A DNA stretch of 33,119 bases. It comes from Bacteroidales bacterium (GTDB taxonomy: Bacteria; Bacteroidota; Bacteroidia; Bacteroidales; UBA932). This document shows, one piece after another, positions 501 to 16,447 of this stretch. The DNA is taken from assembly GCA_017423025.1 (NCBI GenBank), contig JAFPGC010000048.1, positions 1 to 33,119 of the forward strand, given 5' to 3'. Position 1 is the stretch's first letter, and every line of letters starts with the position of its first letter. Made by a program: the position numbers and the translations under genes. Below the pieces are notes generated by a model. The model was not told the DNA's origin. It saw nothing but the letters and a program-made list of their open reading frames with translations, and did no database searches.

Positions 501-926
501 ATGAAGCATGAAATCGTTATCAAAGGTCTGGAGGACCTGGACAGGGCTGCGGAGGCGTTCCTGAAAGAGATTGGGGACCATACGCTGGTAGCGTTCTATG
601 CGCCGATGGGAGCAGGAAAAACCACTTTTACCACCGCCATCTGCAAGGCTCTTGGCGTGGAAGAAGACGCCATCAGTTCACCCACCTTTGCCATTGTGAA
701 CGAGTACCGTGGCGGCAATGGGCGGCCCATCTTTCATTTTGATTTCTATCGCATTGACAAACCGGCCGAGGCGTTGGACATCGGCCTGTACGACTATCTG
801 GATTCCGGGGAACTTTGCCTGATGGAATGGCCGGAGAATGTGGAAGACCTGCTGCCGGAGGAAACCCTGAAGGTGCAGATTCGCGTTCAGGCCGACAATT
901 CCCGCATTCTGAGCTGGGAGGACTAG
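501..926 (+). CDS. tsaE: tRNA threonylcarbamoyladenosine biosynthesis ATPase TsaE
   Basis: This 141-residue protein belongs to the TsaE/YjeE family, the P-loop ATPase that works with TsaB and TsaD in placing threonylcarbamoyl on A37 of ANN-decoding tRNAs in the cytoplasm. The Walker A motif GAGKTT lies around residues 38-43. Family motifs SSPTFAIVNEY (about 59-69), FHFDFYRI (about 78-85) and the LMEWPE segment (about 107-112) are all present. Length is normal for the family, and about 35 residues precede the P-loop, which supports the ATG at 501. The start codon directly follows a -7 promoter box. At its 3' end the gene converges on the GH30 gene: the two stop codons share the bases CTAG (923-926), leaving no room for a terminator between them. 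Confidence 0.95.
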   Translation: MKHEIVIKGLEDLDRAAEAFLKEIGDHTLVAFYAPMGAGKTTFTTAICKALGVEEDAISSPTFAIVNEYRGGNGRPIFHFDFYRIDKPAEALDIGLYDYLDSGELCLMEWPENVEDLLPEETLKVQIRVQADNSRILSWED

Positions 927-2401
927 TCCTTCCAAAGCACTGACTGAATAGCTTTGGCAGGCACTTTCAAAGGCACGGAATTCTTCCCGCTGATTACATT
1001 CACCATGACTTCGGAGGTTCCTTCGTTCAAAAGGAGAAGGGCCTGACTGCCATCGGGATTCACGTACCACTGATAGGCGAGACCTGCTGTCTGGAAACCC
1101 TTGGTCCCTACACGCACTGCACCGGGCTGCAGAACCTTGGAACAATGGGCCAGGTTGTAATAATGGGAGTTTCTGGTAATGGTTTTGTGATCCTGGGCCG
1201 ACAGGGTAACCGCACCGTAGCAGGTACTGCAGCCACCAGGACGAAAAGGCTTGTTCTCGCTGTCCAGCATCAAGTTCCAAAGCGTGACGCCCTTGCCGAA
1301 ACGGCCCAGCGTACCCAGGAAAATGTCTCGGAAATCATTGATAAGGCAGCCCTCGAAGGTATAATTCCATTCGCCGATGGATGCCTCCGTGAAATAGATT
1401 TCTTTCTCCGGGAAACGGGAGTGGATTCCCTCCAGCACCGTCACGCTGCCCCCGTAGTTATGCCAGGCAGACCCGGCTACGTACTGTGACGCTTCCTCGT
1501 CTTCCAGGATGTGAACCGGATAGTCTTTCTGGGAAAGAATGCCGTCATAGTTGTAATTATGGTCGAAAAGGAGGATCTTGGTTTGGATGCCGGCCGCCCG
1601 GAAGGAAGACCCTATGGCCTGCTTGATGAAATCCAACTGGTCTTCCCAAGGCATATACAGTGACATGGAATTCCCCCTGTTCAGCGGCTCATTCTGTAAG
1701 GTGACGGCATAAATGGGATAGCTCCGGCTCTCCATCTCCTGAATCCACCGGACAAAGTAGGAAGCATAGTCCTGATAGTGGAGCGGATTCAATCGGCCTC
1801 CGGTCCAACTGTCGTAAGGAATGGTTTTTCCGTCTTCCGACATCTTCATCCACCTGGGACAGCTCCAGGGAGAGCCGATGATCTTCACCGACGGGTTAAT
1901 CTGGAGAATCTGGTCCAGGATGGGGAACAGATATTGGCTGTCCGACGTATGCACCGCAAAGTTCTCCATTCCAGGCTTGTCGCACCAGGTAAACTCATCC
2001 AGCGAGAAGTCCGACCCGCCTATGCATACCCGGATCAAGGACAAGCCCAGTCCTTCCTCACGGCTGAAGATCTCCTTCAGGAAGGCCGTGCGGTCTGCTT
2101 CCGGCATCTGCAGCAGGTTGTAGCAACTGGCCTGGGTTATGGCTACTCCAAACCCGTCTACAGCCTGGAAGGAATCTCCTGTTCGCTCCACTTTGTAGAA
2201 GTTCACTTCTTCGGCTTTTCCAAGATTCACGGTAGTGCTGGAGAATCGGGACCCGGTGGTAGTGGTAGTATATACCATGGCCTGTTTTACCTCAACAGGA
2301 GGGGTGGGCGGCTGGGGCCGGGGTTCGGGATCCGGTTTAGAACCGGAACAGCATAACAGCACGGCGGCAAAGGCAGGATATAGCAAATGGATGGATTTCA
2401 T
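923..2401 (-). CDS. GH30-family glucanase lipoprotein, last gene of the PUL
   Basis: This 492-residue protein is a clan-A retaining glycoside hydrolase of family GH30. The N-terminus is a lipoprotein signal with Cys17/Cys18, followed by a proline/acidic linker (about 19-40). The catalytic barrel starts near residue 75 with VDGFGVAIT, the typical GH30 opening. The acid/base is Glu238 in TLQNEP and the nucleophile is Glu339 in IYFTEASIGEW. SPWSCPRWMK (about 177-186) is also typical. A C-terminal beta-sandwich (about 420-492) completes the fold. Known Bacteroides GH30_3 members are endo-beta-1,6-glucanases acting on yeast beta-1,6-glucan or laminarin branches; the neighbouring GH16 and GH3 enzymes make that activity likely here, but subfamily is inferred. 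It starts 3 bases after the CotH-like gene. A 7-bp hairpin (2331-2347) lies just after the signal-peptide codons. Confidence 0.88.
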   Translation of the reverse strand: MKSIHLLYPAFAAVLLCCSGSKPDPEPRPQPPTPPVEVKQAMVYTTTTTGSRFSSTTVNLGKAEEVNFYKVERTGDSFQAVDGFGVAITQASCYNLLQMPEADRTAFLKEIFSREEGLGLSLIRVCIGGSDFSLDEFTWCDKPGMENFAVHTSDSQYLFPILDQILQINPSVKIIGSPWSCPRWMKMSEDGKTIPYDSWTGGRLNPLHYQDYASYFVRWIQEMESRSYPIYAVTLQNEPLNRGNSMSLYMPWEDQLDFIKQAIGSSFRAAGIQTKILLFDHNYNYDGILSQKDYPVHILEDEEASQYVAGSAWHNYGGSVTVLEGIHSRFPEKEIYFTEASIGEWNYTFEGCLINDFRDIFLGTLGRFGKGVTLWNLMLDSENKPFRPGGCSTCYGAVTLSAQDHKTITRNSHYYNLAHCSKVLQPGAVRVGTKGFQTAGLAYQWYVNPDGSQALLLLNEGTSEVMVNVISGKNSVPLKVPAKAIQSVLWKD

Positions 2402-2404
2402 ACA

Positions 2405-4042
2405 TCAAAGGGTGTTGGCAATGACGGAAAGTCTTTCTTCAAAAATAGCGATCAGACGGTCTACGGCGTCGTCGAAACTCATGGCCTCGTCGCCGTTCAC
2501 AATTTGGCCGCCGTTCATGGACGCATCCAGGACGGGGTTCCACATTTTGAAATTCAGCGTGGCCGACGGCCGGAGTTGTTCACGAGTCTCCTCCATATAG
2601 GCCGGGATGGTCTGCAACAAGGGTAACAGTTCGCGGAAACGCGACCGGGCTTTCTCCCGGAAAGAAGGGTCTTCGAACAAACGGTCATACCAGATGGATT
2701 TCAAGTTAATGAGTCCGGTCTGCGCATGAGGAGAGGTTTTGTAAGAGAGAATCCCCCAGTCAAAGTCCCAGCAAGGACCAGCCTTGAGCTTTCCTCCCCG
2801 GTCTTTGTGGAAAAACACGCTGCCGGGGTTGCCCAACTCGTGGTTCCCCATCACTTCGAACACCAGCCAGTAGTCTATGAATGAATCCACATCCAGGTAT
2901 GCCGCATAGCCCTTTTCCGGATCTGCAAAACCCGCTCCGTAGAGGGCTCCTGCAGCCATGGAAATGAATCCCTGGATATAACTCAACTGTGACGGCGTCA
3001 GGTCATCCGGGTCGGGATATTTGACCCCGAAGGGAATGGAAGCCTCAAAACCGGCCTGGTAACCGTGCCCGTGAGGGTCTTTCCACTGCACCTCATTGTC
3101 ATAGTGGAAATCCAGTTCCAGCAGATAGCCTCCCGTCAGCGCTTCTCCTTCATTGTCTTCCGGAGTCATTTCCGTGACGGGCACCCGGTTCTTGTCCACC
3201 CGGACCTGTTCGATGAGCAGATAATTACCCACATGCTTCCCGTTCAGGACCAGCTCTATGCTCCGGCAACGGGGGGTCCAGTCCAAACCGGTCATGGATG
3301 CTACTCTCATGGATACCAGGTTGCGCATAAGGGTGCGGTCCATGAAATTGGCCAGCAAAACCCAGCGTTTGTGTTTGGGCATCCCCAGGAGGGACTCCTT
3401 CTTGTCCAACTTGATGAGATAGGGCTTCTTGGGCCACTCCCAGGTGGTATTTCCCCGGCCCCGGACGGAACACACCGTCTCTCCCAACCGCTCGAGGGGA
3501 TCTTCGCTACGGATGGAAAAGACCGCCGGAACATAGTCTTCCTTGGATACAATAGATGCCGCCTGATCCGTATCCAGGTACATCACGGGAAGGCCGGTGT
3601 TCAAAACCACGCCGTGGGTTCCGGCATTCTCCCCTTTCACCACGAACGCCTGGGAAAAGACATACGCGTCCTTCCCGGCTTCCGGACGGATTCCCAGCCG
3701 GAGCTCCAGATTGTACTCATTGTCCCCACCCTTGTCGGACAAAAGGGCCGAATAGGTCCCCTGCTCCGCCTCTGGGCGCACATCGGAAAGGCGTACCTCC
3801 GTAGGCGTTCCGGGGGAAAGGGTGAATAGCACCACTCCTTCCGTGAGACTGAAGGAAAAATCGGGGGCTTCCACGGAGAAATGGATGCGGGCCGATCCTC
3901 CCTGCGGCAAAACCACCCGGGACTCCTGGACCGACACGCTTGTGAGCACGGCGGCAGGCGGCGACGGCACAATCGTCTCCTTCTTGCAGGAACAAACTGC
4001 AAGAAGGAGGACCATTGTGACGGCTACCTGACGTAGCATCAT
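2405..4042 (-). CDS. CotH-kinase-family lipoprotein in the PUL
   Basis: This 545-residue exported protein carries a CotH domain. A lipoprotein signal ends near Cys17/Cys19. An N-terminal beta-sandwich (about 30-140) precedes the CotH region (about 150-440). Family signatures are VRGRGNTTWEWPKKPY (193-208), KRWVLLANFMDRTLMRN (225-241), NGKHVGNYLLIEQVR (267-281) and GPCWDFDWG (422-430), whose Asp426 and Asp428 are the likely metal/ATP-binding acids. CotH proteins of Bacillus spores and Rhizopus are secretory-pathway protein kinases; CotH genes recur in Bacteroidota glycan loci and cellulosomal systems, where their role is not settled. The gene sits between GH3 (9-base gap) and GH30 (3-base gap), so it is co-expressed with the glucanases. 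A perfect 13-bp hairpin lies in its signal-peptide codons (3977-4009). Kinase activity is not demonstrated by sequence. Confidence 0.85.
   Translation of the reverse strand: MMLRQVAVTMVLLLAVCSCKKETIVPSPPAAVLTSVSVQESRVVLPQGGSARIHFSVEAPDFSFSLTEGVVLFTLSPGTPTEVRLSDVRPEAEQGTYSALLSDKGGDNEYNLELRLGIRPEAGKDAYVFSQAFVVKGENAGTHGVVLNTGLPVMYLDTDQAASIVSKEDYVPAVFSIRSEDPLERLGETVCSVRGRGNTTWEWPKKPYLIKLDKKESLLGMPKHKRWVLLANFMDRTLMRNLVSMRVASMTGLDWTPRCRSIELVLNGKHVGNYLLIEQVRVDKNRVPVTEMTPEDNEGEALTGGYLLELDFHYDNEVQWKDPHGHGYQAGFEASIPFGVKYPDPDDLTPSQLSYIQGFISMAAGALYGAGFADPEKGYAAYLDVDSFIDYWLVFEVMGNHELGNPGSVFFHKDRGGKLKAGPCWDFDWGILSYKTSPHAQTGLINLKSIWYDRLFEDPSFREKARSRFRELLPLLQTIPAYMEETREQLRPSATLNFKMWNPVLDASMNGGQIVNGDEAMSFDDAVDRLIAIFEERLSVIANTL
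3977..4009 (-). repeat. Perfect 13-bp hairpin inside the 5' end of the cotH-like gene
   Basis: CTCCTTCTTGCAG (3977-3989) and CTGCAAGAAGGAG (3997-4009) are exact reverse complements separated by 7 bases. On the mRNA the hairpin begins about 33 bases after the A of the start codon, in the signal-peptide codons, with loop UUUGUUC. A similar structure sits at the same place in the GH16 gene. Regulation by attenuation, RNA processing or translational pausing is inference. Confidence 0.75.
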
Positions 4043-4051
4043 CTAACCAAA

Positions 4052-6292
4052 CTATTTTACACTAAACGTTAGGGGCTCTCCAGAAGCGCTGTCTCCGGCC
4101 ACCCATAATTGGAATTCGCCGGTTTCAACCTTCTTGGTCCCGTCCAGGCCCCAAAATGCCAGTTCCTGAACGGGAATCTGAAGGGTGACAATGCGGTTTT
4201 CGCCGGGGTTCAGCTCTACTCTTTCAAAGCATTTGAGCTCTTTGACAGGGCGGGTAAGGGAACCAACCAAATCCCTTACATACACCTGTACAACCTCGGT
4301 TCCTCTGCACTCACCAGTGTTGGCAAGCGTAAAGGAAACCGCAATCTGGTCTTCTTTGCCGTATTCCTTTTTATCCAGTGACACGTTGGAATACTCAAAG
4401 GTCGTATAGCTGAGACCATATCCGAAGGGGAACAGCGGATAGGCGCCATAATCCAGATAGTAGGACGTATTGCCCAGCGACGTCTGCCCGGCTTCCAGGT
4501 CAATGTCGGCCAGCAGGGTTTCGCCCTGGTAAGGCCTTCCCGTCATGTTGTGGTTGTAGTACAGGGGAGCCTGTCCCACCGTGCGGAGGAAGGTGATGGG
4601 CGTTTTGCCGGAAGGGTTGACCTCACCGGTGAGGAGGTTGGCCAGGGCCGGACCACCCATGGTTCCGGGATGGAAGGAATACAACACGGCATCGCAATTG
4701 GGAAGGTCGCGCTCGATGGTGAGCGGGCGGCCGGCCAGGATGGTGGCCACGACGGGCTTGCCGGTAGCCTTGAGGGCGGCCAGCAGCTCACTTTGGGAGC
4801 CGATGAGGTTGAGGTCGGCCAGACAATGGGCCTCACCGGAGAGGATGGATTCCTCGCCCAGGAAGGCCAGGATCACATCGGCCCCGCGGGCGGCAGACAC
4901 AACGTCGTCAAAACGGTCCCTCTTTTCGCGGCTGAAGCGCAGACCGGGGACATAAGTCACCTGGCCGGGGAAACGCTCCTGCAGGGCCTTCAGAGGGGTA
5001 ATCGTATGCTCTTTCTGGCCGTCGAAGCACCAGGTTCCCAGCTGATCCCAGGGGGCATCGGCCATGGGCCCGGTGACCAGGATACGGCTTTGTCCCTTCA
5101 GCGGAAGGATGCCGTTGTTCTTGAGGAGGATGGCCGATTCTTCAGCGGCCTTCTGCGCGGCAGCCAGGTGCGTAGGGGCATACTGGACAGCCTTCGCCGC
5201 CTCAACGTCCACGTACGGATGCTCGAACAGGCCCAGCATGATCTTGACGCGGAGGATGTTGCGGACAGCGTTGTCAATGGTCTTCTCCTTGACGGCCCCG
5301 CTCCTGACCAGTTCTTCCAGATGGGAAAGGAAGCCGTAGGTCATCATATCCATGTCCACGCCTGCGTTTGCAGCCTTTTCGGCCACATCCTTGCGGTCTT
5401 CACCGAAGCCGTGGTTGATCATTTCTCCCATGGAGTTCCAGTCGGTCACAACCAGGCCGTCGAAGCCCCATTCTCCGCGAAGGATGTCCTTAACTACGAA
5501 AGTATTACCCGTAGAAGGGACGCCGTCGTTGTCGTTGAAGGAGGTCATCAGCGTCATGGCTCCGGCCTTGATGGCGGCCTCGAACGGAGGCAGGTAGAAG
5601 TTGCGCAGCTGGCGCTCCGTAAGGAAGGTGCTGTTGTAGTCCCTTCCGCCTTCTGCGGCACCGTAGCCCACGAAATGCTTCACACAGGCAGCCATGGAGG
5701 TGGTATCGGCCTTACGCCCCTGGTAACCGTATACCATGGCTTCGGCCATGCGGGTGTCCAGATAGGTGTCTTCTCCGCTGCCCTCGGCGATGCGGCCCCA
5801 ACGGGGGTCGCGGGCAATGTCCAGCATGGGCGAGAACGTCCAGCGCACGCCCTGTGCCGTGGCTTCCAAGGCAGCTATGCGGGCTCCCTCCTCTACAAGG
5901 GCGGGGTCAAACGTAGCGGCCAGACCCAGCGGAATGGGGAAAATGGTATGGAAACCGTGAATGACGTCGCGGCCCACCAGCAGCGGAATTCCCAGGCGGG
6001 TTTCTTCCACCGACAGACGTTGGAATTCGTTGATTTTCACGGGATCCACCTCGTTGAGAATAGAACCCACCTGGCCTTTGCGGATGGCGTCGGCGTAGTT
6101 GGATACGTCTCCTCCGGCCGAGACCTGATTCATCTGGCCGATTTTCTCTGCCAGAGTCATCTTTCCCAGCAAGGCTTCCACACGGGCTTCCACGGTCTCA
6201 TCGGCCCCGATGGTGCCGGCCTTTTTTTGCCCAGTACAGGCAAGGGCAAGCACCACGACAGCCGATAAGGATAGGTATTTAATACAATTCAT
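4052..6292 (-). CDS. GH3 beta-glucosidase, BglX type, lipoprotein
   Basis: This 746-residue enzyme has the full BglX-like architecture. A lipoprotein signal (Cys19) is followed by the TIM-barrel domain (about 35-370), the alpha/beta-sandwich domain (about 385-610) and a fibronectin-III-like C-terminal domain (about 650-740). KHFVGYGAAEGGRDYN (205-220) is a GH3 substrate-loop motif. The nucleophile is Asp284 in VVTDWNSMG. The acid/base is likely in FLGEESILSGEAH, with Glu487 the best candidate. GH3 members of this type release glucose from the non-reducing end of short beta-1,3, beta-1,6 or beta-1,4 gluco-oligosaccharides, here presumably products of GH16 and GH30. Length is normal (E. coli BglX has 765 residues). 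Gaps are 3 bases after GH16 and 9 bases before the cotH-like gene. The gene has almost no TTA, CTA or TCA codons. Confidence 0.94.
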   Translation of the reverse strand: MNCIKYLSLSAVVVLALACTGQKKAGTIGADETVEARVEALLGKMTLAEKIGQMNQVSAGGDVSNYADAIRKGQVGSILNEVDPVKINEFQRLSVEETRLGIPLLVGRDVIHGFHTIFPIPLGLAATFDPALVEEGARIAALEATAQGVRWTFSPMLDIARDPRWGRIAEGSGEDTYLDTRMAEAMVYGYQGRKADTTSMAACVKHFVGYGAAEGGRDYNSTFLTERQLRNFYLPPFEAAIKAGAMTLMTSFNDNDGVPSTGNTFVVKDILRGEWGFDGLVVTDWNSMGEMINHGFGEDRKDVAEKAANAGVDMDMMTYGFLSHLEELVRSGAVKEKTIDNAVRNILRVKIMLGLFEHPYVDVEAAKAVQYAPTHLAAAQKAAEESAILLKNNGILPLKGQSRILVTGPMADAPWDQLGTWCFDGQKEHTITPLKALQERFPGQVTYVPGLRFSREKRDRFDDVVSAARGADVILAFLGEESILSGEAHCLADLNLIGSQSELLAALKATGKPVVATILAGRPLTIERDLPNCDAVLYSFHPGTMGGPALANLLTGEVNPSGKTPITFLRTVGQAPLYYNHNMTGRPYQGETLLADIDLEAGQTSLGNTSYYLDYGAYPLFPFGYGLSYTTFEYSNVSLDKKEYGKEDQIAVSFTLANTGECRGTEVVQVYVRDLVGSLTRPVKELKCFERVELNPGENRIVTLQIPVQELAFWGLDGTKKVETGEFQLWVAGDSASGEPLTFSVK

Positions 6293-6295
6293 TGC

Positions 6296-7429
6296 TTATT
6301 GTTTCTTAAATGCGCGCACGTACGCTACTTTCATGGTACAAGGGAGGGCCGATTCATCCACGCCCTGGCTTCCGCCCCAGTCTCCACCCCAGGCCAGATT
6401 CAGGATGAGGTAGAAGTTCTTGTTGAAGGGCCAGGTGTCGTCGTTGCCCGTATTGTCGTTGGCAAAGGTGAAATGCAGCTTGCGGTCTACATAGAACTTG
6501 AGGGCGTCCGGCGTCCATTCCAGCGCATAGATATGATATCCGTCCTCGGCACCGGCCGTGAGTTGCTCGTGGGTTTTCTGGGTGCCGATGGCATGGTAAT
6601 ACTTCATGCAGTGGATGGAGGAGGAGGTGTAGTTGGGGTGGTAGCCCACCTCTTCCAAGATATCTATCTCACCACAACCCGGCCACCCGCGGCTGAAGTC
6701 GTCGGGCATCATCCAGAAAGCAGGCCAGGTGCCTTTTCCCTTGGGAAGCCAGATGGCGGCTTCCATATAGCCGTACGTCCAGGATTTCTTGGAATACATA
6801 CGGGCCGATATGATGTCCTTCCCTTCCTTGATGGCACGGATGTTAAGGACGCCGTCCTCGATAAAGGCGGTGCGGACACCGTTCCGGCCGCCGGCCACAT
6901 AGGTTTGCAGTTCGTTGTTCACCCAGCCGGCAGGCTTGCTCTCAAAGCGCCACTTGTTGGCATCGGGCATGCTGCCGTTCTCCTGTTCGAATTCGTCGTT
7001 CCAGTCCAGCACGTAGCCTTGGGGAACCACCATCTCGTCGGGAGCAACCGGATCTACGGGTTTCTCCTTTCCGGTCTGCGTCACCGCCACGGCAAGGGTT
7101 TTTCCGTCATAGCGGAAAGTGATGGTGTTGTTGCGGGTGTCGTAGGTTTTGTTCTCGTCCACCTTGACCGTCACCGTCGACGTTCCGCTGATGCCGCCCG
7201 ACGGGGACACGTGGCACCATTCCTTGTCCTCGGCCGATACACCCCAGTCACAATTGGATGTGACAGAGAGCGTTACTTCGTCCTTCGCATCTGTGAAAGA
7301 GAGGGTGGAGGCCGATACGGAAAGGGTGCCCACGGGGTCCGGCACCGGCGGCTTGGAGCCGCACGCACTGGTTAAAAGGGTTGCTGCACAAAGCAGCAGC
7401 AACCCTTTTCTAAGTTCACGAAAAGTCAT
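6296..7429 (-). CDS. BACON-GH16 laminarinase (endo-beta-1,3-glucanase) lipoprotein
   Basis: This 377-residue protein has three parts: a lipoprotein signal with Cys23 in TSACGS; a BACON domain (about 35-120, with CDWGVS, WCHVSP and ITFRYDGK); and a GH16 beta-jelly-roll catalytic domain (about 138-377). The catalytic motif is GEIDILEE: Glu254 nucleophile, Asp256 and Glu259 acid/base. The ExDxxE spacing is the bulged form found in laminarinases and related endo-beta-1,3 or mixed-linkage glucanases rather than agarase variants with altered surroundings. GTWPAFWMMP and SSSIHC are also typical. BACON domains are thought to place the enzyme away from the membrane or bind ligands. Its ATG overlaps the stop codon of the upstream gene (TAATG), which implies translational coupling. 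A perfect 14-bp hairpin (7374-7409) lies in the signal-peptide codons. Confidence 0.94.
   Translation of the reverse strand: MTFRELRKGLLLLCAATLLTSACGSKPPVPDPVGTLSVSASTLSFTDAKDEVTLSVTSNCDWGVSAEDKEWCHVSPSGGISGTSTVTVKVDENKTYDTRNNTITFRYDGKTLAVAVTQTGKEKPVDPVAPDEMVVPQGYVLDWNDEFEQENGSMPDANKWRFESKPAGWVNNELQTYVAGGRNGVRTAFIEDGVLNIRAIKEGKDIISARMYSKKSWTYGYMEAAIWLPKGKGTWPAFWMMPDDFSRGWPGCGEIDILEEVGYHPNYTSSSIHCMKYYHAIGTQKTHEQLTAGAEDGYHIYALEWTPDALKFYVDRKLHFTFANDNTGNDDTWPFNKNFYLILNLAWGGDWGGSQGVDESALPCTMKVAYVRAFKKQ
7374..7409 (-). repeat. Perfect 14-bp hairpin inside the 5' end of the GH16 gene
   Basis: AAAAGGGTTGCTGC (7374-7387) and GCAGCAACCCTTTT (7396-7409) are exact reverse complements with an 8-base loop. 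On the mRNA the structure begins about 20 bases after the start codon and ends in UUUU. It lies just past the junction between the glycan-binding gene and the first enzyme gene, where it could lower read-through or stabilise processed susCD mRNA. The function is inference. Confidence 0.8.
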
Positions 7430-9861
7430 TATTTTTCTTCCATTAAGACTACGTCATCCGCTACAATAGTCGAGCCAATGGGGCTGCGGCCAAAGTCGAA
7501 GATAAGCATTGCGTTCTCGCAGGATTCGGCCTGGGTAAGCCCTCTCTTGATGTAAGTGAGGGGTTCTCCGGCGCTCAGCTTCACCTGGCCGTCGTAGAAG
7601 AAGGAATGCAGGTCGCCCTCTCCTTCCGGGTTGCCGGTGAGCTTGATGGTCACGGTCATATCCTCATCGGCCGTCAGGGTCACGCTGAAAGCATAGGTCT
7701 TCTCGCTGGAAGTGGCCACGGAACTGATGAGCTTGGTCTGACCCATCCATTCGCTGCCGCCTACGCCATCGGGAATGGTGACCTCCACGCCGCCCTTGGC
7801 GGTGATGGAAGCATCCGGAGTAATGCCGCCAGACCAGTCGCCCGGGGAATACCAGGTCTCGAGGGTGAGGCCTTCGGCCGTCCAGAGATTGCCGTCCTTG
7901 TGCTCCTGGAGCAGGATGTCGGAAGCCGCGATGGTGGAACCGACAGGGCTGCGGCCGAAGTCAAAGATGAGCATGACATTGTCGCCGGAAACACTCTGCT
8001 TGATGTTGTGCTTGCGGTATACGAAAGGCTCGCCGCCCGTCAGCTTCACCTGTCCATCGTAGAAGAAGGAGTGAATGTCGTCACTTTCCTCGGGATCGTT
8101 GGTGAGCTTGATGGTCACGGTCATATCCTCATCGGCCAGGAGGGTGACGCTGAAGTCGTATTCCTTATCGGCCGAAGTGGCGATGCCGCTCTTGAGCTTG
8201 GTCTGACCCATCCACTCGCTGCCGCCCACGCCGTCGGGAATGGTGACAATGATGCCGTTGCCAGCCGTAACTTCGTAATCGGGAGTAAGTCCACCGGACC
8301 AGTCGCCAGGAGAATACCAGGTCTCCACGTCGAGTGTTGCGGCTTTCCAGAGGTTGGTGTCACCGTTCACGTCGTAGTCGGTGGGATCCAGCGGCTGCTC
8401 GGGATCGGGTTCCGGCTGAGGATCCACCTGACCGTCCTTCGGGCGGTAGATGAACTGCCAGGAAATACCTTCGAAGTTGGCCACCACAAAGAGCTTCTGG
8501 GGAGTCAGTTCCTTGATATACAGGCGGTTGGGCTCCGTAAGCACCTGAGGCTTGGGAATGTAGCCATACAGAACGCCGGCCGGGATTTCGATGTAGTCGC
8601 CTATTTCGTCCGTGCCCTGGATGTAGGTAGATTCCATAAGCTCGGCGGGAGCGTCATAGTCGGTGCTGCCGTCGCCGGAATAATAGCCGTCGGGACGCCA
8701 GCCGGACTCCCAGTTGCAGTAGACCATACCGTTTGCACCGGGATCGAAGACATACTTGCCGTTGGCAAAGAAGGTGAGTTCGTCGTCAATGAGGGCGAAA
8801 CCGTCCTTCTCGTGAGGAGCGGCGCTCCACCAGCCACCGGAATTGCCGAAATCGGGACCACAGCCCATATAACCGGCGCTTTCGTTGTCCAGAATCCAGA
8901 CCTTGCTCTCCTGACCGTAGAGCGGATCAGGCTCACCCACCACGGACCCCTTGGGAACAAACTCGTAGTACCAGGAGATACCGTCGGGATTGTTGGGGGT
9001 GTATACGGTGGACATAAGCTTGAGGGTCTTCTTCATATCGGCCGGCTTGGAGTCCATCACCAGGAAGCGGGGATCTTCCACAGCGCTCTTGTGGGGCACG
9101 TAGGAGAGAATGCTGCCTTCTTCCAGAACCAGATAGATTTCCTCGATACCGGCATCGTTCCAGTTGTTTTCGAAGGTGTACTTGGTGGTCTTTACCTCGG
9201 CCGGGAACAGGTAGTCTTCGCCTTTGTTGTATTCCGGCATATATTCGGAACCGGTGTTGGCATAGGCCATACCGTCTTCCGGAGTGAAGGTATACAACCC
9301 TTCGGCATCGAAGGTCATCACGTCGTCATACAGGAAGCCCTTCTTACCGTTGGCTTCGCAGGACCACCAGGCCAGCGGATCGCCCACGGGGCCGCAGCCG
9401 AAGTGACCGTTAACGGTGCTGTTCCACACCCATTCCTGGGTAGTTCCGCCGGAAATGGCGCGGACGTACGGGCTGGGATCGAAGGGATCGCGGTAGGTAT
9501 TGTTCAAGGTGAAGGTCTTCACCTGGGAACCCTGGGAGAGACCATCCTTATTATAGGCTTTCACCTCAACGGTATACACACCCGCGTCACGGAAACGCAG
9601 GGAGACATTGTTTTCGGTATAGGCGTAGCGCTTGGAGGCTTTTCCGTCAATCTTCTGATCGCCGAAAATCCACACCGGCACCATTTGCTTGTTGTTCATC
9701 ACGAACGTGACGAAGTTAGTTTCCTGGTCCACGGTAATAACCACGTCCAGTTCAGAGGCCTGCGGCAGTCCGCTGGCGTTGGGAATCTCGTATTGCGGGG
9801 TGCAAGCGGCAGCGAAAACAGCCATTGCCGCGATTGCGATATATTGCCAGATTCTTTTCAT
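7429..9861 (-). CDS. Modular surface glycan-binding lipoprotein (SusE/F position)
   Basis: This 810-residue lipoprotein (Cys20 in FAAACTPQ) follows susD, the usual position of SusE/F or SGBP-B proteins, which hold glycan at the cell surface. Visible modules: a PKD-like beta domain (about 35-120, ending AGVYTVEVKAYN); two related domains (about 141-305 and 317-475) sharing a Gly-Cys-Gly-Pro...WW motif and a DVMTF/DELTF strand; an acidic proline linker (476-500); and two nearly identical CBM4/9-like domains at 503-653 and 658-808, offset by exactly 155 residues, each with TWYSPGDWSGG and IPDGVGGSEWMGQTKL. CBM4-type folds bind beta-1,3-glucan, xylan or related glucans; the assignment to that fold is from appearance only. 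No catalytic motif was seen. Four putative binding modules suggest multivalent capture of the polymer. Gap to susD is 12 bases. Confidence 0.85.
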   Translation of the reverse strand: MKRIWQYIAIAAMAVFAAACTPQYEIPNASGLPQASELDVVITVDQETNFVTFVMNNKQMVPVWIFGDQKIDGKASKRYAYTENNVSLRFRDAGVYTVEVKAYNKDGLSQGSQVKTFTLNNTYRDPFDPSPYVRAISGGTTQEWVWNSTVNGHFGCGPVGDPLAWWSCEANGKKGFLYDDVMTFDAEGLYTFTPEDGMAYANTGSEYMPEYNKGEDYLFPAEVKTTKYTFENNWNDAGIEEIYLVLEEGSILSYVPHKSAVEDPRFLVMDSKPADMKKTLKLMSTVYTPNNPDGISWYYEFVPKGSVVGEPDPLYGQESKVWILDNESAGYMGCGPDFGNSGGWWSAAPHEKDGFALIDDELTFFANGKYVFDPGANGMVYCNWESGWRPDGYYSGDGSTDYDAPAELMESTYIQGTDEIGDYIEIPAGVLYGYIPKPQVLTEPNRLYIKELTPQKLFVVANFEGISWQFIYRPKDGQVDPQPEPDPEQPLDPTDYDVNGDTNLWKAATLDVETWYSPGDWSGGLTPDYEVTAGNGIIVTIPDGVGGSEWMGQTKLKSGIATSADKEYDFSVTLLADEDMTVTIKLTNDPEESDDIHSFFYDGQVKLTGGEPFVYRKHNIKQSVSGDNVMLIFDFGRSPVGSTIAASDILLQEHKDGNLWTAEGLTLETWYSPGDWSGGITPDASITAKGGVEVTIPDGVGGSEWMGQTKLISSVATSSEKTYAFSVTLTADEDMTVTIKLTGNPEGEGDLHSFFYDGQVKLSAGEPLTYIKRGLTQAESCENAMLIFDFGRSPIGSTIVADDVVLMEEK
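7438..7890 (-). repeat. Second copy of duplicated CBM-like domain (DNA level)
   Basis: This encodes residues 658-808 of the glycan-binding lipoprotein. It aligns without gaps to the block at 7903-8355 at an offset of 465 bases. Long runs are shared at both DNA and protein level, for example the segments encoding HSFFYDGQVKL and LIFDFGRSP. It reflects an internal duplication of one module. Confidence 0.85.
7903..8355 (-). repeat. First copy of duplicated CBM-like domain (DNA level)
   Basis: This encodes residues 503-653 of the glycan-binding lipoprotein and pairs with 7438-7890. The two copies differ mainly in the segment before VTIPDGVGG and at the C-terminal strand, which may tune ligand preference. 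Confidence 0.85.
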
Positions 9862-9873
9862 GATTGCCTGGTA

Positions 9874-11379
9874 TTAATAGTTGTTCTGCTCGAGGGCCGG
9901 ATCCTTGTCAATCTCGCCCTGAGGGATAGGCCAGTACTTTTTATTCTCGTTCCAGTCGTTCTGGCGGTACTCGTGATTGGCCGCCTTGAGGACGGTGGCA
10001 GCAAGGCCGCTGCGGACCAGGTCCCAATAACGCTTGCCTTCACCCACGAACTCCTTATGGCGCTCCTGGATGATATCTTCACGGGAGGTACCGGTGTCGT
10101 GGCAGTTGGCGCGGTCGCGAACCTGCTGGAGGTAGCTGGTGCCATCCTGTCCCAGAAGCAGAGACAGTTCTGCGGCGTTCAGCAGGGTTTCGGCATAACG
10201 GTAAATGCGTTCGTTATTGCCGTAGTTCAGGTTATCGGAGGCCTTGTAACCGTGGTTTCCGCCTTCGCGGGCGATGTATTTAAGGTTCCAGAAGCCCGTA
10301 TCCTGCCAACGGGGAGTGTATTCTGCTCCGGGGTGGGATTCGGCGTACTTGGCAAAGTTCAAAATGCCGCCATCCTTGCGGATATCGTCATCGTCATACA
10401 TGTCGTATGCACTCTTGGCGATGGTGCCGAAGCCCCAGCCCTCGTGGTAGTCGGGAACATTCTTGGGCGAAGGAATACCGGTAAGGATGGAGTTAACCTG
10501 ACCACCGGCAGCGATGGAGTTGCCCCAGTCGCGGATACCGCCTTCAGACATGTAGTTGATCTCCCAGATGGATTCGGGACCCCATTCACCGGTCTCTTCC
10601 CAGATTCCGGCAAAATCGGCTACCAGGGAATACTGGTTGCTGGAGATGATTTCCTTCATGTAGTTCAAAGCCGTCTGGTAACGGGACTGGTCGTTCTGAT
10701 ACATCACGGCCTCGGCATAAAGCATGTAAGCCATGGCCTTGGTCACGCGACCCTCGCTGCCCACAGGAGCCTTCATGGGAAGGACGTTAAGGGCGATGGC
10801 ATCCTCGATGAGCTTGATGAAATTGGCATAGACCTCGTCGTGGCCCAGCTGAGGAGCGAAATAAGGGGCCTCCAGGAGTTCCTCCCAGTAAGGGATGTTG
10901 CCCCAGAGTTTCCACAGCATATTGTAGTAATAGGCCATAAGAACCTTGGCCTCGGCCACATAGAGCTTCTTGGTGGCATCATCCACACCTTCGGCCGAGT
11001 CAACATACTTGATGAGGGTGGCGGCACGGTTGATACCGGAATAGTTAACCGTCCACATCTGGTTGCACACGTCGGTAGAGGTGGCGGTATAATAGTGAGT
11101 CTTCACGATGATGGGCTGGTCACCCTCGTTGGAACCTCCGGCATAAACGTCGTCGCCCATCACATCGAAGATGAGGTGGAGATTGTCGTACTGGCCGAAA
11201 GCATAGTCGTACCACTCCAGCGGGTCGTAAGCGGCCACCAGGCACTGGAAGAGACGCTCCGGGGTATTGAAATACTCGTCAAGCGGTTCGGAGCTGTTGT
11301 GCTTGGGATTGATGAAATCCTTGGAGCAAGCAGACAGAACAGCGGCAAGGACGGTAAGTGCAAAAACTATCTTTTTCAT
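9874..11379 (-). CDS. SusD/RagB-family nutrient-binding lipoprotein
   Basis: This 501-residue protein is a SusD homologue, the lid that closes over the SusC channel in the outer membrane and captures oligosaccharides. The lipoprotein signal ends at Cys18 (LSACSKDF). The N-terminal SusD-like region has LFQCLVAAYDPLEWYDYAF and the helical TPR-like core includes NRAATLIKYVDSAEG. The C-terminal RagB/SusD domain shows the typical NNERIYRYAETLLNAAELSLLLGQ segment, then RDRAN and a closing ...WPIPQGEIDKDPALEQNNY, which is close to the family's conserved C-terminal motif (YPIPQxEI...NPxLxQNPGY). Length is normal. It follows susC by 12 bases. Through the whole gene no TTA, CTA or TCA codon is used, which leaves the antisense frame open. 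Confidence 0.97.
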   Translation of the reverse strand: MKKIVFALTVLAAVLSACSKDFINPKHNSSEPLDEYFNTPERLFQCLVAAYDPLEWYDYAFGQYDNLHLIFDVMGDDVYAGGSNEGDQPIIVKTHYYTATSTDVCNQMWTVNYSGINRAATLIKYVDSAEGVDDATKKLYVAEAKVLMAYYYNMLWKLWGNIPYWEELLEAPYFAPQLGHDEVYANFIKLIEDAIALNVLPMKAPVGSEGRVTKAMAYMLYAEAVMYQNDQSRYQTALNYMKEIISSNQYSLVADFAGIWEETGEWGPESIWEINYMSEGGIRDWGNSIAAGGQVNSILTGIPSPKNVPDYHEGWGFGTIAKSAYDMYDDDDIRKDGGILNFAKYAESHPGAEYTPRWQDTGFWNLKYIAREGGNHGYKASDNLNYGNNERIYRYAETLLNAAELSLLLGQDGTSYLQQVRDRANCHDTGTSREDIIQERHKEFVGEGKRYWDLVRSGLAATVLKAANHEYRQNDWNENKKYWPIPQGEIDKDPALEQNNY

Positions 11380-11391
11380 ATCCGTTGTCTG

Positions 11392-14300
11392 TTAGAAAGT
11401 TAGATTGAGACCAAAGGTGACGGTTCTGTTCTGGGGATAGACGCCACGGTCCACACCCACTTCGCGGAAACCGCCGGACACTTCCGGATCGCAACCGGTG
11501 TATTTGGTGAGCGTAAAGGCGTTCTCAACCTGTGCATAGAACCTCAGGCGGGAGATGAAAGCCTTCTTGGTAATGTTGGAAGGCAGAGTGTAACCCAACT
11601 GGATGTTGCGGGCGCGCAGGAAGGAGGCGTCTTCCATCCAGTAATCGGATACGCGGTAGTTCTCGTTGGCCGAATCAAAGGCGAAACGGGGATACTTGTT
11701 GGTGGAACCTTCGCCGGTCCAGCGGTTCAGGATGGACTTGGGCAGGTTGATGTAATAGAGGTCGGTACGACGGGTCACGTTGAGCGTCTGTGCACCCAGC
11801 TGGCCCTGGAGGAGCATCGAGAAGTCGAAGCCCTTCCAATCCATGGTAATCGTAAGACCGAAGGTCCAGTCGGGAATACCCTTGCCCAGTTTGGTGCGGT
11901 CGTTATCGTTGATGACGCCGTCGCCGTTGATATCCTTCCAGCGGAAGTCGCCGGGCTGGGCGTTGGGCTGGATAAGACCGCCCTCGCTGTTCACATAAGA
12001 GTTGACCTCGTCCCAGTTCTGGAACACACCGTCGGTCTTCCAACCCCAGAAGTAAGGGAATACTTCACCCACTTCGCCGCGGGTCAGGGAGCCAATCTTG
12101 TGCGAGGAGGTAATGATGTAAGAGGAGTCATCGGCCAGCTTGGTGAGCTTGTTCACGTTGTAGGAAGCGTTGGCCTTGATGCCATAGTTGAAATCGCCGG
12201 CGGAACCACGGTAACCCAGGTCGATCTCGACACCGGAGTTGCGCATGGTACCGACGTTGCCGGTAGGAGCGGAGTCACCTGCGTAGGTGGGCACCTGCAT
12301 CTCCATGAGCATACCGGAAGCGTCCTTGATGTAGTAGTCTACGGTAGCCGTGAACCGGTTGCCCCAGAGGCCGATTTCAGCACCGAAGTCGGTCTGGATA
12401 GACTGTTCCCACTTGGCGTTGGGGTTGGCCAGGCCGGAGGCCTTTACACCGATATTGACGCTTTCCGTAGCATTGGCACCGGAACCGAAGATATAGTTGT
12501 TACCGGACTGTGCGTAAACGGCATACAGGAAGTCGCTCAGGTTGTCCTTACCGTTGATACCCCAGGAAGCACGGATCTTGGCCAGGGAAATAACCGGGTT
12601 GTACTTGAGGAACTCTTCGTTCTTCAGGTTCCAGCCTATGGAAGCAGACGGGAAGGTACCCCACTTGTTGTTGGGGCCGAAGTGAGAGGAAGCGTCCCGG
12701 CGGACGGTTGCCTGGGCCAAGATACGCTCGTCAAAGTTATAGGTAACACGGCCGAAGTAGGACAGGATGCTGTAAGGAATGGAATTCCAGCTTCCCCAGC
12801 CGTCACGGTCACCGTCGTTCGCCTGACCCAGCGTATTGTTTACGCTGATCTTCCAGGGATCGTCGGGATAGATGAGACCCTTGGCGGAAGCGCCCAGGGA
12901 GGCGGAAGAGGACATATAGGCCGACTGACCCAGCACCACGTTAAGGGAATGCTTGCCAAACACCTTGTCATACACAAGGGTGTTTTCCACCTGGTAGCTG
13001 TAGTAACGGTACATGTTCTGCCAGGCGGAGGAACCGTAGTTCGTCTTCTCAACTGTGGAGGGATTGCCCTTGGAGTCGTACACCGTGGAGGTAGTGACCG
13101 TATCGTAACTGTAGCTCTTGGAGGTCAGGAAATACGGAACTGTATAACCGTGCTGATACACATAGGAAAGGTCCAGGCTGAGAGCATTGCGGAATTTGAG
13201 GCCGTCAATGAGCTGGAGCTCGGTATTCAATGCGGCAACAATCTTATCGGTGCTGCTGTAGCTGTGAGGACGGTCCAGCATGGCAATGGGGTTGGCCTGC
13301 TCATTATAGGTACCACCATCGGCAATGAAATAGGCCACGCCTTCGCTGTTGCGGATGATATAGGGATATCCGGCCGGATAGAGGGACTGGTAGCGGGCCT
13401 CTTCGGCAGCGTCGGCATAGATGGGATCCAGAGGGGACATACCCAGGGCAGAACCCAGCGGGGAGGCGTATTCAGAGTTGGCCGAGATGCTGGCGCTCTT
13501 GATATGGGCGTAAGAAATCTGGTTGCTGAAGGTGAGCTTGTTGAGCCAGTTGCGCTCGGCCGACTGGTCAAACAGGGTGACACCTACATTCTCGCGCAGC
13601 GTCATTCTGTCATAATAGGACTGGTCGAAACGGCCACCGATGGTACCTTTCGTGGAAAGATAGCTGCCGGAAATGCTGTAGTTGACGCGGGAGGTTCCTC
13701 CGGAGACGTTGAGGTCGTGCTTGATGATAGGTGCGTTCTTGTCGAAAATAGCATCTACCCAATCGGTACCTTTACCCAGGGAATAGGGATCATCGTAGAT
13801 GGGAGCGCTGCCCGCATTGAGCATACCCTCGTTCATCATGATGGCATATTCCGTAGCGTTGAGCACGGACGGCTTGCGCCAGGGATTCTGCATACCATAG
13901 GAGAAGTCGTAATTCACGACCGTTCTGCCTTCCTTACCCGATTTGGTGGTGACCAGCACAACACCGTCAGCCGCACGGGCACCGTAAACGGCAGCGGAAG
14001 CGGCGTCCTTAAGAACGTCGATGCGCTCGATGTCGTTGGGGTTGATGTAGTCGATGCTGCCGGCCGGCATACCGTCTACAATATAAAGCGGAGATGCGTG
14101 GTTGATGGAGCCCACACCACGGACAATCACCGTAGAACTGGCGCCGGGAGCACCGGAGTTCTGGGTGACCTGGACGCCGGAAGTCATACCCTGGAGCATG
14201 TTGTCCACGCGGGTCTGGGACTGAACCTTCAAGTCATCGGCGGTAACCGAGGAGATGGAGGCCGTAACCACGGATTTTTTCTGTACGCCGTATCCGATGA

Positions 14301-14610
14301 CGACGGTTTCTTCGAGCATCTGGGCATCATCCACCAGGACAATACGCAGATTCTGCTCTCCATTGTTTACGATTACCTGCGTCACGTAACCGATACAGGA
14401 CACCTCCACAGAGGCGCCACGGGCGGTGGTAAGCGCAAATGCGCCGTTCTCATCGCTCATGGTACCATTGGTGGTTCCCTGCTCAACTACAAAAGCGCCG
14501 ATAACCGGCTGGTTGGCACTGTCAAGTACGACACCCTTGAAGGTGACGCCCTGCGCCATTGCCACCAGGCTCAATCCTAATGCAAGGATTAAGGAAGCAA
14601 TTTTTTTCAT
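11392..14610 (-). CDS. SusC/RagA-family TonB-linked outer membrane transporter, first PUL gene
   Basis: This 1072-residue transporter imports oligosaccharides through the outer membrane with energy from TonB. The order is: signal peptide (1-19, cleavage after AMA), carboxypeptidase-regulatory-like domain (about 22-95), TonB-box-like segment ETVVIGYG (101-108), plug domain (about 110-225, with LYIVDGMP and DIERIDVLKDAASAAVYGARAADG), and a 22-stranded barrel ending in FGLNLTF. No extra STN domain or FecR interaction domain is seen, so control through an anti-sigma factor is not suggested. It heads the operon and is preceded by a -7 box at 14683-14690 and by the terminator of the regulator gene. 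It pairs with the next gene, susD. Confidence 0.97.
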   Translation of the reverse strand: MKKIASLILALGLSLVAMAQGVTFKGVVLDSANQPVIGAFVVEQGTTNGTMSDENGAFALTTARGASVEVSCIGYVTQVIVNNGEQNLRIVLVDDAQMLEETVVIGYGVQKKSVVTASISSVTADDLKVQSQTRVDNMLQGMTSGVQVTQNSGAPGASSTVIVRGVGSINHASPLYIVDGMPAGSIDYINPNDIERIDVLKDAASAAVYGARAADGVVLVTTKSGKEGRTVVNYDFSYGMQNPWRKPSVLNATEYAIMMNEGMLNAGSAPIYDDPYSLGKGTDWVDAIFDKNAPIIKHDLNVSGGTSRVNYSISGSYLSTKGTIGGRFDQSYYDRMTLRENVGVTLFDQSAERNWLNKLTFSNQISYAHIKSASISANSEYASPLGSALGMSPLDPIYADAAEEARYQSLYPAGYPYIIRNSEGVAYFIADGGTYNEQANPIAMLDRPHSYSSTDKIVAALNTELQLIDGLKFRNALSLDLSYVYQHGYTVPYFLTSKSYSYDTVTTSTVYDSKGNPSTVEKTNYGSSAWQNMYRYYSYQVENTLVYDKVFGKHSLNVVLGQSAYMSSSASLGASAKGLIYPDDPWKISVNNTLGQANDGDRDGWGSWNSIPYSILSYFGRVTYNFDERILAQATVRRDASSHFGPNNKWGTFPSASIGWNLKNEEFLKYNPVISLAKIRASWGINGKDNLSDFLYAVYAQSGNNYIFGSGANATESVNIGVKASGLANPNAKWEQSIQTDFGAEIGLWGNRFTATVDYYIKDASGMLMEMQVPTYAGDSAPTGNVGTMRNSGVEIDLGYRGSAGDFNYGIKANASYNVNKLTKLADDSSYIITSSHKIGSLTRGEVGEVFPYFWGWKTDGVFQNWDEVNSYVNSEGGLIQPNAQPGDFRWKDINGDGVINDNDRTKLGKGIPDWTFGLTITMDWKGFDFSMLLQGQLGAQTLNVTRRTDLYYINLPKSILNRWTGEGSTNKYPRFAFDSANENYRVSDYWMEDASFLRARNIQLGYTLPSNITKKAFISRLRFYAQVENAFTLTKYTGCDPEVSGGFREVGVDRGVYPQNRTVTFGLNLTF

Positions 14611-14682
14611 ACGCGTTTGGATTTGTTGTGCGTTTTTGGTTATTGTTTAATTAAATGAGGTTTTTCGACACTAGGTCTGGTG

Positions 14683-14690
14683 CAAAATTA
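14683..14690 (-). promoter_or_regulatory. -7 box of the PUL operon promoter
   Basis: On the minus strand TAATTTTG matches TAnnTTTG and is followed by CACC, a common context. The predicted start is near 14676, giving a leader of about 66 bases to the susC ATG. No good TTTG lies 19-20 bases upstream, which fits a promoter that needs an activator such as the adjacent DUF6377 regulator (inference). Confidence 0.6.
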
Positions 14691-14740
14691 TCCGGAATTT
14701 TCACAGGTGCTTTTCTTAGGAAAACAAAAGTAGCAAACAT

Positions 14741-14772
14741 AAAAAGATAACCGCCACAAAATTAGGCGGTTA
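14741..14772 (-). terminator. Intrinsic terminator after the PUL regulator gene
   Basis: TAACCGCC (14765-14772 on the mRNA strand) and GGCGGTTA (14748-14755) form an 8-bp perfect stem with a 9-base loop. On the minus strand it is followed by TCTTTTT. It begins about 40 bases after the regulator stop codon. The opposite side also carries a T-run (GTGTTTTT). Confidence 0.75.
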
Positions 14773-14811: not shown

Positions 14812-16443
14812 CTACTTACCTAGGGCTTTTACCCGTTCCTCGAAGGTTTCACGCTCTCCGAGACTAGCATTTTTTATGGCTACTTTGTAATTATAGATGG
14901 TACTTACAGAGTAGTCCAGCATGGAAGCGATTTTCTTGCTGTCGTCCACGCCCAGGAGAATGAGGGCGAACACCCGCTGCTCCGTGGTAAGCTTTCCTTC
15001 CGGCGGAATCACCCGGGCATCCGGCTGCAGCAAAGCGTTGAACTGAGCCACAAAATCCGGATACAGGGCCAGGAAAGTATTGTCAAAGGTTTCGTAGAAC
15101 TCCTCGCGGGCCTTTTCCGAGCGGCCGCTGATGGAAAGTTCTTTCAGCAACTGATCAGCCTTCCCCTGCTTGAGCAGGTTGCGGAAGCGGTTGTCCTCCG
15201 TACGGATGACGGAGATTTGGGCCGATAAGCCCTGGAGGAAGTTCACAATGTATTTCTCCTTGACCCGGCTGGCGTTCGAAATCTGGCGGTTGAGGTCGTT
15301 GAGCGTGGCATTGGCCATGGCCAGGGATTTGTTGCTCTTCTCCAGTTCGCGGCTCATCTTGGCCAGTTTGCGGGAGCGCCGCACCCAGATGCGGGCCAGG
15401 ATGGCAAGGATTACCGTCAGGACCGCCAAAAAGACGGCCGCAATCTTGTTGGTCCTGTTGACTCCATCCTGCCGCGTGGAATAGGCATCCTCCACCTCCA
15501 TGAGGAAACGGGAGATCTGCCAGGGGCGGAGCTTGGCATTATAAAACAGGGCGTCCTCCTGCGCTATCCGAAGGTATCGGAAAGAACGGTCCACGTCGGA
15601 AGGGAGGATGAGCTGGGCCACCATGGTCAGGGAAGCGTAGTCCCTCACCGCATTGATAAGGTCGCATTCGGCCGATTTCACCAGCCAGTACAGGCGCTCG
15701 GCCTGGTCTCCCCTCAGATTGGCCAGTTCCGACTGGAAAAAGGCGTGGATGGCAAAGTCGCGGTCTTCGGGCTTGACGCTCTGAACCAGCAAAGTGCTAA
15801 CGCTATCGGCCAAATCTAACTGTCCCTCATCGATGTACTGGTCTCTAAGCAGGGCCCGGTAGCGGTCCGAGGAAGGAGGAAGCAGTTGGTACAAACGGGC
15901 ACGGAACGAAGCCGCCGGAGGGATGGACATCCGTTCCACCATACCGGAATTGCCGGCCATGTCCTTGCTGTAATCGTACAGGGTCCAGAAATACTCGGCC
16001 TTCAGCTCCTCCGACAAGGCGTTTGTATCTATTTGGTTATAAAGAATTTGCGTGGCCTCTAGATAGTTGCCGGCCTTGTCGTACAGATGCCCCAGCATAA
16101 CGGAGGCCTGGTTAAGGCGCTCCTCGTCTTCTATTTGCCGGGCCAGCGACTGGCAGCTCTTAAGATAAGACTGGGTGGAGTCGAAGTTGAAGGCGAAATA
16201 CTCTTCCGCAGCCAGCATTTCCAACTCATAGCGCCGGGCCGGGTCCGTGGTGGCCTGGGCCAAATTACGGTATACGTCCAGCTGGTTCTGCTTTTTGGCG
16301 GCATAGGCTTCCCTCAGGGCCAGATAGCCGTCCAGCTCATCCATGAGCTGGCGGGTCTTTTTATCCAGGCTGGGAGGTGCGATGCAGGAGGCGGCCATCA
16401 GGGCCGTCAGCGCCAAAAGAGATATCCCCCTGCGAAAACTCAT
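14812..16443 (-). CDS. Membrane-spanning DUF6377/SusR-like transcriptional regulator of the PUL
   Basis: This 543-residue protein has the layout of Bacteroidales SusR/DUF6377 regulators. The N-terminal export signal ends near Cys20 (MAASCIAPP), followed by a periplasmic all-helical TPR-like region (about 25-320), one transmembrane helix (about 333-353) and a cytoplasmic coiled coil (about 355-400). The DUF6377-like segment (about 400-480) includes EKYIVNFLQG. The C-terminal LuxR-like helix-turn-helix (about 485-530) has SKKIASMLDYSVSTIYNYK. Such proteins sense a glycan breakdown product in the periplasm and activate susC promoters. Its position directly upstream of susC in the same orientation supports that role. 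A terminator separates it from susC, so the two are not co-transcribed. Its own -7 box lies four bases from the ATG. The family name is from memory of architecture. Confidence 0.82.
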   Translation of the reverse strand: MSFRRGISLLALTALMAASCIAPPSLDKKTRQLMDELDGYLALREAYAAKKQNQLDVYRNLAQATTDPARRYELEMLAAEEYFAFNFDSTQSYLKSCQSLARQIEDEERLNQASVMLGHLYDKAGNYLEATQILYNQIDTNALSEELKAEYFWTLYDYSKDMAGNSGMVERMSIPPAASFRARLYQLLPPSSDRYRALLRDQYIDEGQLDLADSVSTLLVQSVKPEDRDFAIHAFFQSELANLRGDQAERLYWLVKSAECDLINAVRDYASLTMVAQLILPSDVDRSFRYLRIAQEDALFYNAKLRPWQISRFLMEVEDAYSTRQDGVNRTNKIAAVFLAVLTVILAILARIWVRRSRKLAKMSRELEKSNKSLAMANATLNDLNRQISNASRVKEKYIVNFLQGLSAQISVIRTEDNRFRNLLKQGKADQLLKELSISGRSEKAREEFYETFDNTFLALYPDFVAQFNALLQPDARVIPPEGKLTTEQRVFALILLGVDDSKKIASMLDYSVSTIYNYKVAIKNASLGERETFEERVKALGK

Positions 16444-16447
16444 ATCG

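Follow-up and report, generated by a model that had tools for sequence, protein, structure and literature searches.

A hairpin in signal-peptide codons at the transport/enzyme boundary of a Bacteroidales sugar-utilisation operon

In a sugar-utilisation operon of uncultured ruminant-gut Bacteroidales, the first enzyme gene carries a perfect 14-bp hairpin in its signal-peptide (SP) codons. Comparison with relatives shows that selection maintains this hairpin in the sense mRNA, at the junction between the susC-susD-binding-protein genes and the first enzyme gene. It probably helps to set the relative amounts of the transport and binding products, on one side, and of the enzyme products, on the other. 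These operons pose a basic question: how SusC/SusD and the enzymes come to be made in different amounts from a single transcript. A search of the open-licence literature found no paper on susCD/enzyme polarity in Bacteroides, nor any study of hairpins in SP codons at junctions of this kind.

The window, the whole stretch of 33,119 nucleotides that was analysed, contains an operon in the order susC, susD, binding protein, GH16, GH3, CotH-like, and GH30, with a DUF6377 gene ahead (Table 1). Pfam bears out the gene names: GH16, CotH, SusD, TonB-dependent receptor plug (SusC-like), GH3, GH30, and DUF6377. For the binding protein it gives sub-threshold PKD matches only, and the SGBP label rests on operon position, not on a family match. 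The locus is probably regulated by the DUF6377 protein. The GH16 gene's ATG and the TAA stop of the binding-protein gene have one base in common; the initial annotation had pointed out the overlap, from which we infer co-transcription across the boundary.

Table 1. Operon genes, hairpins, and the gene overlap in the window
Feature	Position	Strand	Remarks
GH30 lipoprotein	923..2401	-	z 0.6, best stem 7 bp
CotH kinase-like lipoprotein gene	2405..4042	-	start 9 nt past GH3 gene
Second hairpin, 13 bp, 7-nt loop	3977..4009	-	lipobox codons (LLA..CKK), CotH-like gene
GH3 lipoprotein	4052..6292	-	z -1.6, best stem 6 bp
GH16 lipoprotein with BACON domain	6296..7429	-	operon's first enzyme gene
Junction hairpin, GH16 SP codons	7374..7409	-	exact inverted repeat; kept in relatives
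3' arm (mRNA sense)	7374..7387	-	
Loop	7388..7395	-	
5' arm (mRNA sense)	7396..7409	-	
TAATG	7427..7431	-	binding-protein stop overlapping GH16 start
SusE/F-position surface binding lipoprotein (SGBP)	7429..9861	-	no strong SP hairpin, z 0.2
SusD-like lipoprotein	9874..11379	-	no SP hairpin, z -0.2
SusC-like TonB-dependent receptor	11392..14610	-	
DUF6377 protein	14812..16443	-	probable regulator

The arms are 14 nt each, complementary at 14 of 14 positions, with an 8-nt loop between them; on the coding strand the hairpin reads AAAAGGGTTGCTGC-TGCTTTGT-GCAGCAACCCTTTT. Within the GH16 gene it takes up bases 20-55 (the A of the ATG being base 0), and its stem begins 19 nt past the binding-protein stop codon and 20 nt past the GH16 ATG. 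The exact arms, the loop, the place in the gene, and the UUUU at the end of the mRNA form had all been described in the initial annotation, and all were recovered; the UUUU is part of the stem, and the tail after the stem is AACCAGTG.

No longer perfect stem (loop 3-20) occurs in the window. When the window was shuffled 1500 times with its dinucleotides preserved, stems of at least 14 bp arose at 0.0020 per shuffle and stems of at least 13 bp at 0.0093, in line with the few per thousand first estimated for a 13-14-bp hairpin. The window holds two stems of at least 13 bp; none of the 1500 shuffles did. The hairpin is real and unlikely to be due to chance. A fold of positions 7330-7450, plus strand, gives z = -3.9. 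The next strongest hairpin of the window, which the initial annotation did not mention, lies in SP codons of the same operon, at bases 33-65 of the CotH-like gene, and has z = -4.5 against synonymous recoding; the best stem of the GH30 gene is 7 bp. Rfam returned no match at or above a family gathering threshold across the window, and chance-level matches only at 7300-7480. The third-longest stem of the window, a perfect 12 bp with a 4-nt loop at 28100-28127, lies between two gene ends and has no T-run in the stretch shown. Elsewhere in the genome, L052:13992-14026 is the third 13-bp SP hairpin, in a 434-codon gene that clusters with the CotH family.

Pairing is kept in GH16 relatives from the genus, a check that had been proposed at the outset. 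The motif type comprises 22 distinct GH16 genes sharing K-G-L-L..A-A-T-L: 20 were picked by this protein motif, and L203 and L216 were put in by hand once their folds were known. The arms are AAAGGGTTGCTGC and GC[A/G]GCAACCCTTT, and the loop is 8 nt in 14 genes and 11 nt in 8. Because a MAFFT alignment misplaced a gap in the repeat TGC, pairs were counted on motif-anchored arms. The 242 core cells (11 pairs in 22 genes) divide into 219 Watson-Crick, 19 G.U, one A.C, and three other, so that 238 are paired. When the genes are recoded synonymously, keeping their own codon usage, 140 pair (sd 5.5, maximum 158, 500 trials). With the arms slid out of register, 84-172 core cells pair. Being inherited, the motif type does not supply 22 independent genes, and a single pair accounts for 12 of the 19 G.U cells.

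Two-sided changes occur in L216 (pair 8), L086 (pair 7), and three sequences at pair 3, and compensatory changes are found in L216, L086, and L258. However, the arms are nearly invariant, and little weight can therefore be placed on covariation alone: when whole 3' arms were dealt among species, a mean of 236.1 cells paired, and 238 was reached in 10 of 2000 trials. Codon conservation was ranked over 76 columns in which a 4- or 6-fold residue is conserved. The top six are the stem codons GGG, TTG, CTG, GCA, ACC, and CTT; a seventh stem column, Ala GCA/GCG, ranks lower and varies only between A and G opposite U. The usual codons elsewhere in the gene differ (for example, GGC rather than GGG), which places the conservation at the nucleotides and not in the protein alone. 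From these comparisons the structure is almost certainly selected.

A palindrome acting at the level of DNA, as an operator or cruciform, was also considered. It is weakened by strand bias: mismatches in the motif-type core are mostly G.U in the sense RNA (19, versus one A.C), and among 488 SP genes z < -3 is found for 41 in sense and 15 in antisense. Counts of stems of at least 12 bp show a modest trend in the same comparison, sense versus antisense (6 versus 3, 12 versus 6, and 4 versus 2).

SP composition could in principle generate such hairpins without any function, either because Leu, Ala, Cys, and Lys codons self-pair (the codons for LLA and CKK are natural reverse complements) or because SPs tolerate inverted repeats left by template switching. 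Recoding makes this scarcely credible. In a 382-kb sample of the window's own genome, window included, a first gene caller gave a best stem in the first 100 nt of at most 8 bp for 62 of 65 SP genes, and of 13, 13, and 14 bp for the other three. The longest stem in 2366 interior 100-mers was 10 bp, and when those SP proteins were recoded by SP codon usage, about 0.006 of 65 genes had at least 12 bp. That caller favoured long antisense ORFs and misjudged neighbours; the junction statistics rest on a later caller.

Five groups were then compared for SP stems of at least 10 bp, with expectations from recoding that leaves the proteins unchanged: 3/80 in the own genome (expected 0.07); 14/278 in the same genus (0.42); 8/94 on named public contigs (0.17); 4/62 in the same family (0.15); and 0/66 in other families of the phylum (0.10). 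Interior gene stretches showed no stem excess in these groups, and non-SP starts gave 1/172, 4/411, 0/126, 0/65, and 0/115. The named relatives are uncultured Bacteroidales, mostly ruminant-derived, and their group overlaps that of the genus by at least four loci (L225/L249, L228/L250, L229/L157, and L230/L155). With 66 SP genes, 22 of them tight, the other-family control is a small one, and it is lower in G+C; z < -3 is found there in 0/22 tight SP genes and in 4/31 at mid or far distance. A mutational origin, moreover, predicts no sense-strand G.U bias, no dependence on junction or module, and no codon conservation.

All sequences are genome assemblies, mostly of uncultured organisms, with gene starts from our own caller; loci L246-L248 were left out. 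SP regions were merged when more than 85% identical for the stem and junction counts, and when more than 92% identical for the later family counts (490 genes left). The gene families are related, and counts are accordingly not independent.

Strong structures are concentrated at tight same-strand junctions, those of at most 20 nt. Among the 488 SP genes left after merging at 85%, z < -3 is reached by 36/259 at such junctions, versus 4/178 elsewhere and 1/51 with unknown neighbour (Fisher 1.4e-5). Removing the 14 flagged motif-type GH16 genes leaves 28/245 tight versus the same count elsewhere (2.9e-4). Sampling of families points the same way: with one gene per family (195 families, mean of 300 draws), z < -2 is found in 15.2 of 89.6 tight genes and 2.4 of 87.7 others, and the 170 single-member families give 13/79 and 2/77 (p = 0.005).

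An export-related RNA element, serving targeting or the timing of SP translation, would agree with the location in SP codons and with the scarcity of structure in tight non-SP genes (z < -3 in 1/128; other non-SP classes 0/52, 1/140, and 1/109, with z computed only for the first 150 non-SP genes of the own and genus groups and baselines slightly negative, -0.3 to -0.45). It is nevertheless very unlikely. SP genes away from tight junctions are rarely structured, SP structure is lost in gapped orthologs, and among tight genes z < -2 is found in 48/103 enzyme genes, versus 0/59 SusD and binding-protein genes (SusD 0/40, binding protein 0/19). Export cannot by itself explain the structures, nor can tightness, since SusD and the binding proteins are lipoproteins that are exported and whose genes sit at tight junctions. 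On these counts, what accounts for them is the position of an enzyme gene after the transport module.

By family, the tight genes with z < -2 number 26/34 for GH16, 9/17 for CotH, 10/35 for GH3, and 3/17 for GH30. In GH16 genes outside the motif type, this place is often taken by strong structures of unrelated sequence (for example, L265; L160; L255/L262; L141/L143/L237). Among non-tight genes, z < -2 is found in CotH (2/8), DUF6377 (6/20), SusC (6/36), and binding-protein (2/10) genes; the structured CotH, DUF6377, and SusC cases make the boundary rule less than strict. Of 41 strong cases, 32 have the 5' edge of the structure 18-44 nt into the gene and 6 have it nearer than 18 nt, so the start codon is generally spared.

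Two of these families deserve separate mention. Relatives of the DUF6377 gene have structured SP codons in 7/24 (tight 1/4, the rest not tight), unlike non-tight enzyme genes. The susC gene of the window has a short 6-bp stem (AATCCTTGCATTAGGATT) in its SP codons, at 14573-14590 on the minus strand; SusC relatives at L141, L142, L241, L258, and L265 have similar stems (ATCCT..AGGAT), with z < -2, and are distant from their upstream genes.

The GH16 junctions themselves allow a closer comparison. An upstream gene was identifiable for 39 GH16 genes of the 490-gene set, and it is a binding-protein relative in 38. These 38 junctions comprise 33 tight (at most 20 nt) and 5 gapped (35-78 nt); z < -2 against synonymous recoding is found in 26/33 tight versus 0/5 gapped (hypergeometric 792/501942 = 0.0016). 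A looser family set, which includes L169 (behind another GH16) and the more distant L076, gives 26/34 versus 0/7 (p = 0.0003). Three of the seven tight junctions not below z = -2 still have a 9-13-bp stem. Moreover, three of the gapped orthologs carry a hairpin in the gap: L233 (13 bp), L240 (10 bp), and L242 (11 bp), starting 14, 24, and 17 nt past the stop codon, respectively. The remaining two gaps hold no stem longer than 6 bp. In the motif type, the stem starts 19-23 nt past the stop in 13 of the 14 genes of the 490-gene set, and at 32 in L224 (L158 and L251 were left uncounted, perfect stems elsewhere being listed there); other types of coding hairpin start about 36-54 nt past it.

That three orthologs have their hairpin in the gap speaks for a role tied to where the upstream gene ends. 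By analogy with Escherichia coli, the likeliest mode of action, to which we give an even chance, is chiefly that of a 3'-protective structure. The transcript would step down at the transport/enzyme boundary: the poorly translated enzyme part of the mRNA would be cut or end early; 3'-5' exonucleases would digest back and halt at the hairpin; and the susC-susD-binding-protein segment would outlast the rest, so that surface transport and binding proteins would outnumber enzymes. SP codons may have been chosen because they tolerate synonymous and conservative change and adjoin the junction, and a stem about 20 nt past the start codon need not block initiation of the enzyme gene. Comparison shows the hairpin housed in SP codons where the genes abut and, in three of the five gapped orthologs, a hairpin in the gap.

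In the E. coli study (Dar and Sorek 2018, PMC5927463), 34 boundaries had an upstream gene that was stabilised, and at 26 of them the RNA ended just past a hairpin. Of these 26 protective structures, 17 are in the downstream coding sequence; they have no U-tract, show wobble conservation, and average 107 nt into the gene. The present hairpin resembles these structures (malE-malF type) in being a stable hairpin at an operon boundary, often within downstream coding sequence; wobble-position conservation there is likewise evident in the GH16 comparison. On the U-tract the picture is mixed: the E. coli structures usually lack one; in the window hairpin UUUU is part of the stem; five or more T in the 8-nt tail were found in none of 22 strong SP hairpins; and T tails follow the gap-borne hairpins. 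There are several differences. The structures described here belong to Bacteroidales sugar-utilisation operons and sit in SP codons, mostly 18-44 nt into the gene, a nearer placement than in E. coli that counts against protection. They also have long perfect stems, sequences unrelated between species, and, in some orthologs, placement in the gap.

The main rival to protection is reduced coupled translation: a hairpin past the coupled start would lower reinitiation or early elongation, giving fewer enzymes, with mRNA stability secondary. We consider this somewhat unlikely, although several observations suit it. The stem begins near +20, outside the initiating ribosome, and tight junctions are favoured. 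A review states that structure just past the upstream stop correlated negatively with coupling efficiency (PMC12548453), and initiation in Bacteroidota is reported to be tuned by local structure (PMC6847099). The structure described in PMC12548453 is likewise a hairpin just past a stop/start overlap; here, however, the start codon is outside the hairpin, and the hairpin is tied to the transport/enzyme boundary. Coupling by unfolding of structure over the start region does not describe the window stem, given its distance from the ATG. The lack of structure in tight SusD and binding-protein genes counts against a brake, but would also fit if only enzymes were braked. Gapped GH16 orthologs are harder to accommodate, because they lack SP structure and three of them hold their hairpin upstream of the start, beyond the reach of a brake on elongation.

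A weak intrinsic terminator, open under close-following ribosomes, could instead act as an attenuator by stopping some polymerases before the enzyme genes. The likeness lies in the GC-rich stem and short U-run of two forms: the GH16 motif type, which ends in CCC-UUUU or CCC-UUCU, and the gap hairpins of L233, L240, and L242, which are followed by TTTAACTT, TTTTTAAA, and TTTTAACG (short T tails). Yet the U-run is short, often within the stem, and broken in several motif-type genes; the CotH hairpins, the other GH16 types, and the other SP hairpins examined are without one. A terminator scan of 900-16500 did not return 7374-7409, and none of 22 strong SP hairpins (stem of at least 8 bp) has five or more T in its 8-nt tail. 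The pairing of GC-rich stem with U-rich tail was thus not found in the coding form, for which an intrinsic terminator was rejected as the common denominator. Attenuation is, overall, improbable; the gap form of the three orthologs may qualify as an intrinsic terminator, and partial termination may occur there.

The initial annotation had proposed that the junction hairpin could set polarity between susCD and enzymes by attenuation, RNase processing, or translational control. That proposal is supported in part: it gains from the conserved pairing, from the recurrence of unrelated hairpins at this junction in other species, and from the restriction, at tight junctions, to enzyme genes as opposed to SusD and binding-protein genes, which agrees with a step between the modules. 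Attenuation by an intrinsic terminator finds little favour for hairpins in coding sequence; protection related to RNases and control of translation may each still account for the hairpin. A precedent for RNA-level control of PUL operons is FopS/RbpB in Bacteroides thetaiotaomicron (PMC11697453); there FopS works in trans, close to where the first gene, mostly susC, begins, whereas the hairpin described here is in cis at an internal junction.

More broadly, module-boundary hairpins that change freely in sequence, and reside in SP codons or, in some orthologs, the gap, might form a general device for setting transporter:enzyme ratios in this Bacteroidales lineage. We regard such generality as plausible, if short of an even chance. 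If hairpins do set the step in expression, the ratio would be encoded in synonymous SP-codon positions and predictable from genomes; coding-embedded mRNA protection, known from E. coli, would reach a phylum that initiates without Shine-Dalgarno sequences; and SP codon choice would not be free when such enzymes are recoded.

A separate pair of hairpins also came to light. L039:218-245 and L046:871-898 have the same 11-bp stem (AGTCTCCGGAT) with differing loops, one near an ORF start and the other at a second site; a search with a shorter 9-bp pattern found only these two among 268 loci. The ORF at this stem presumably encodes a seryl-tRNA synthetase-like protein, to judge by its N-terminus.
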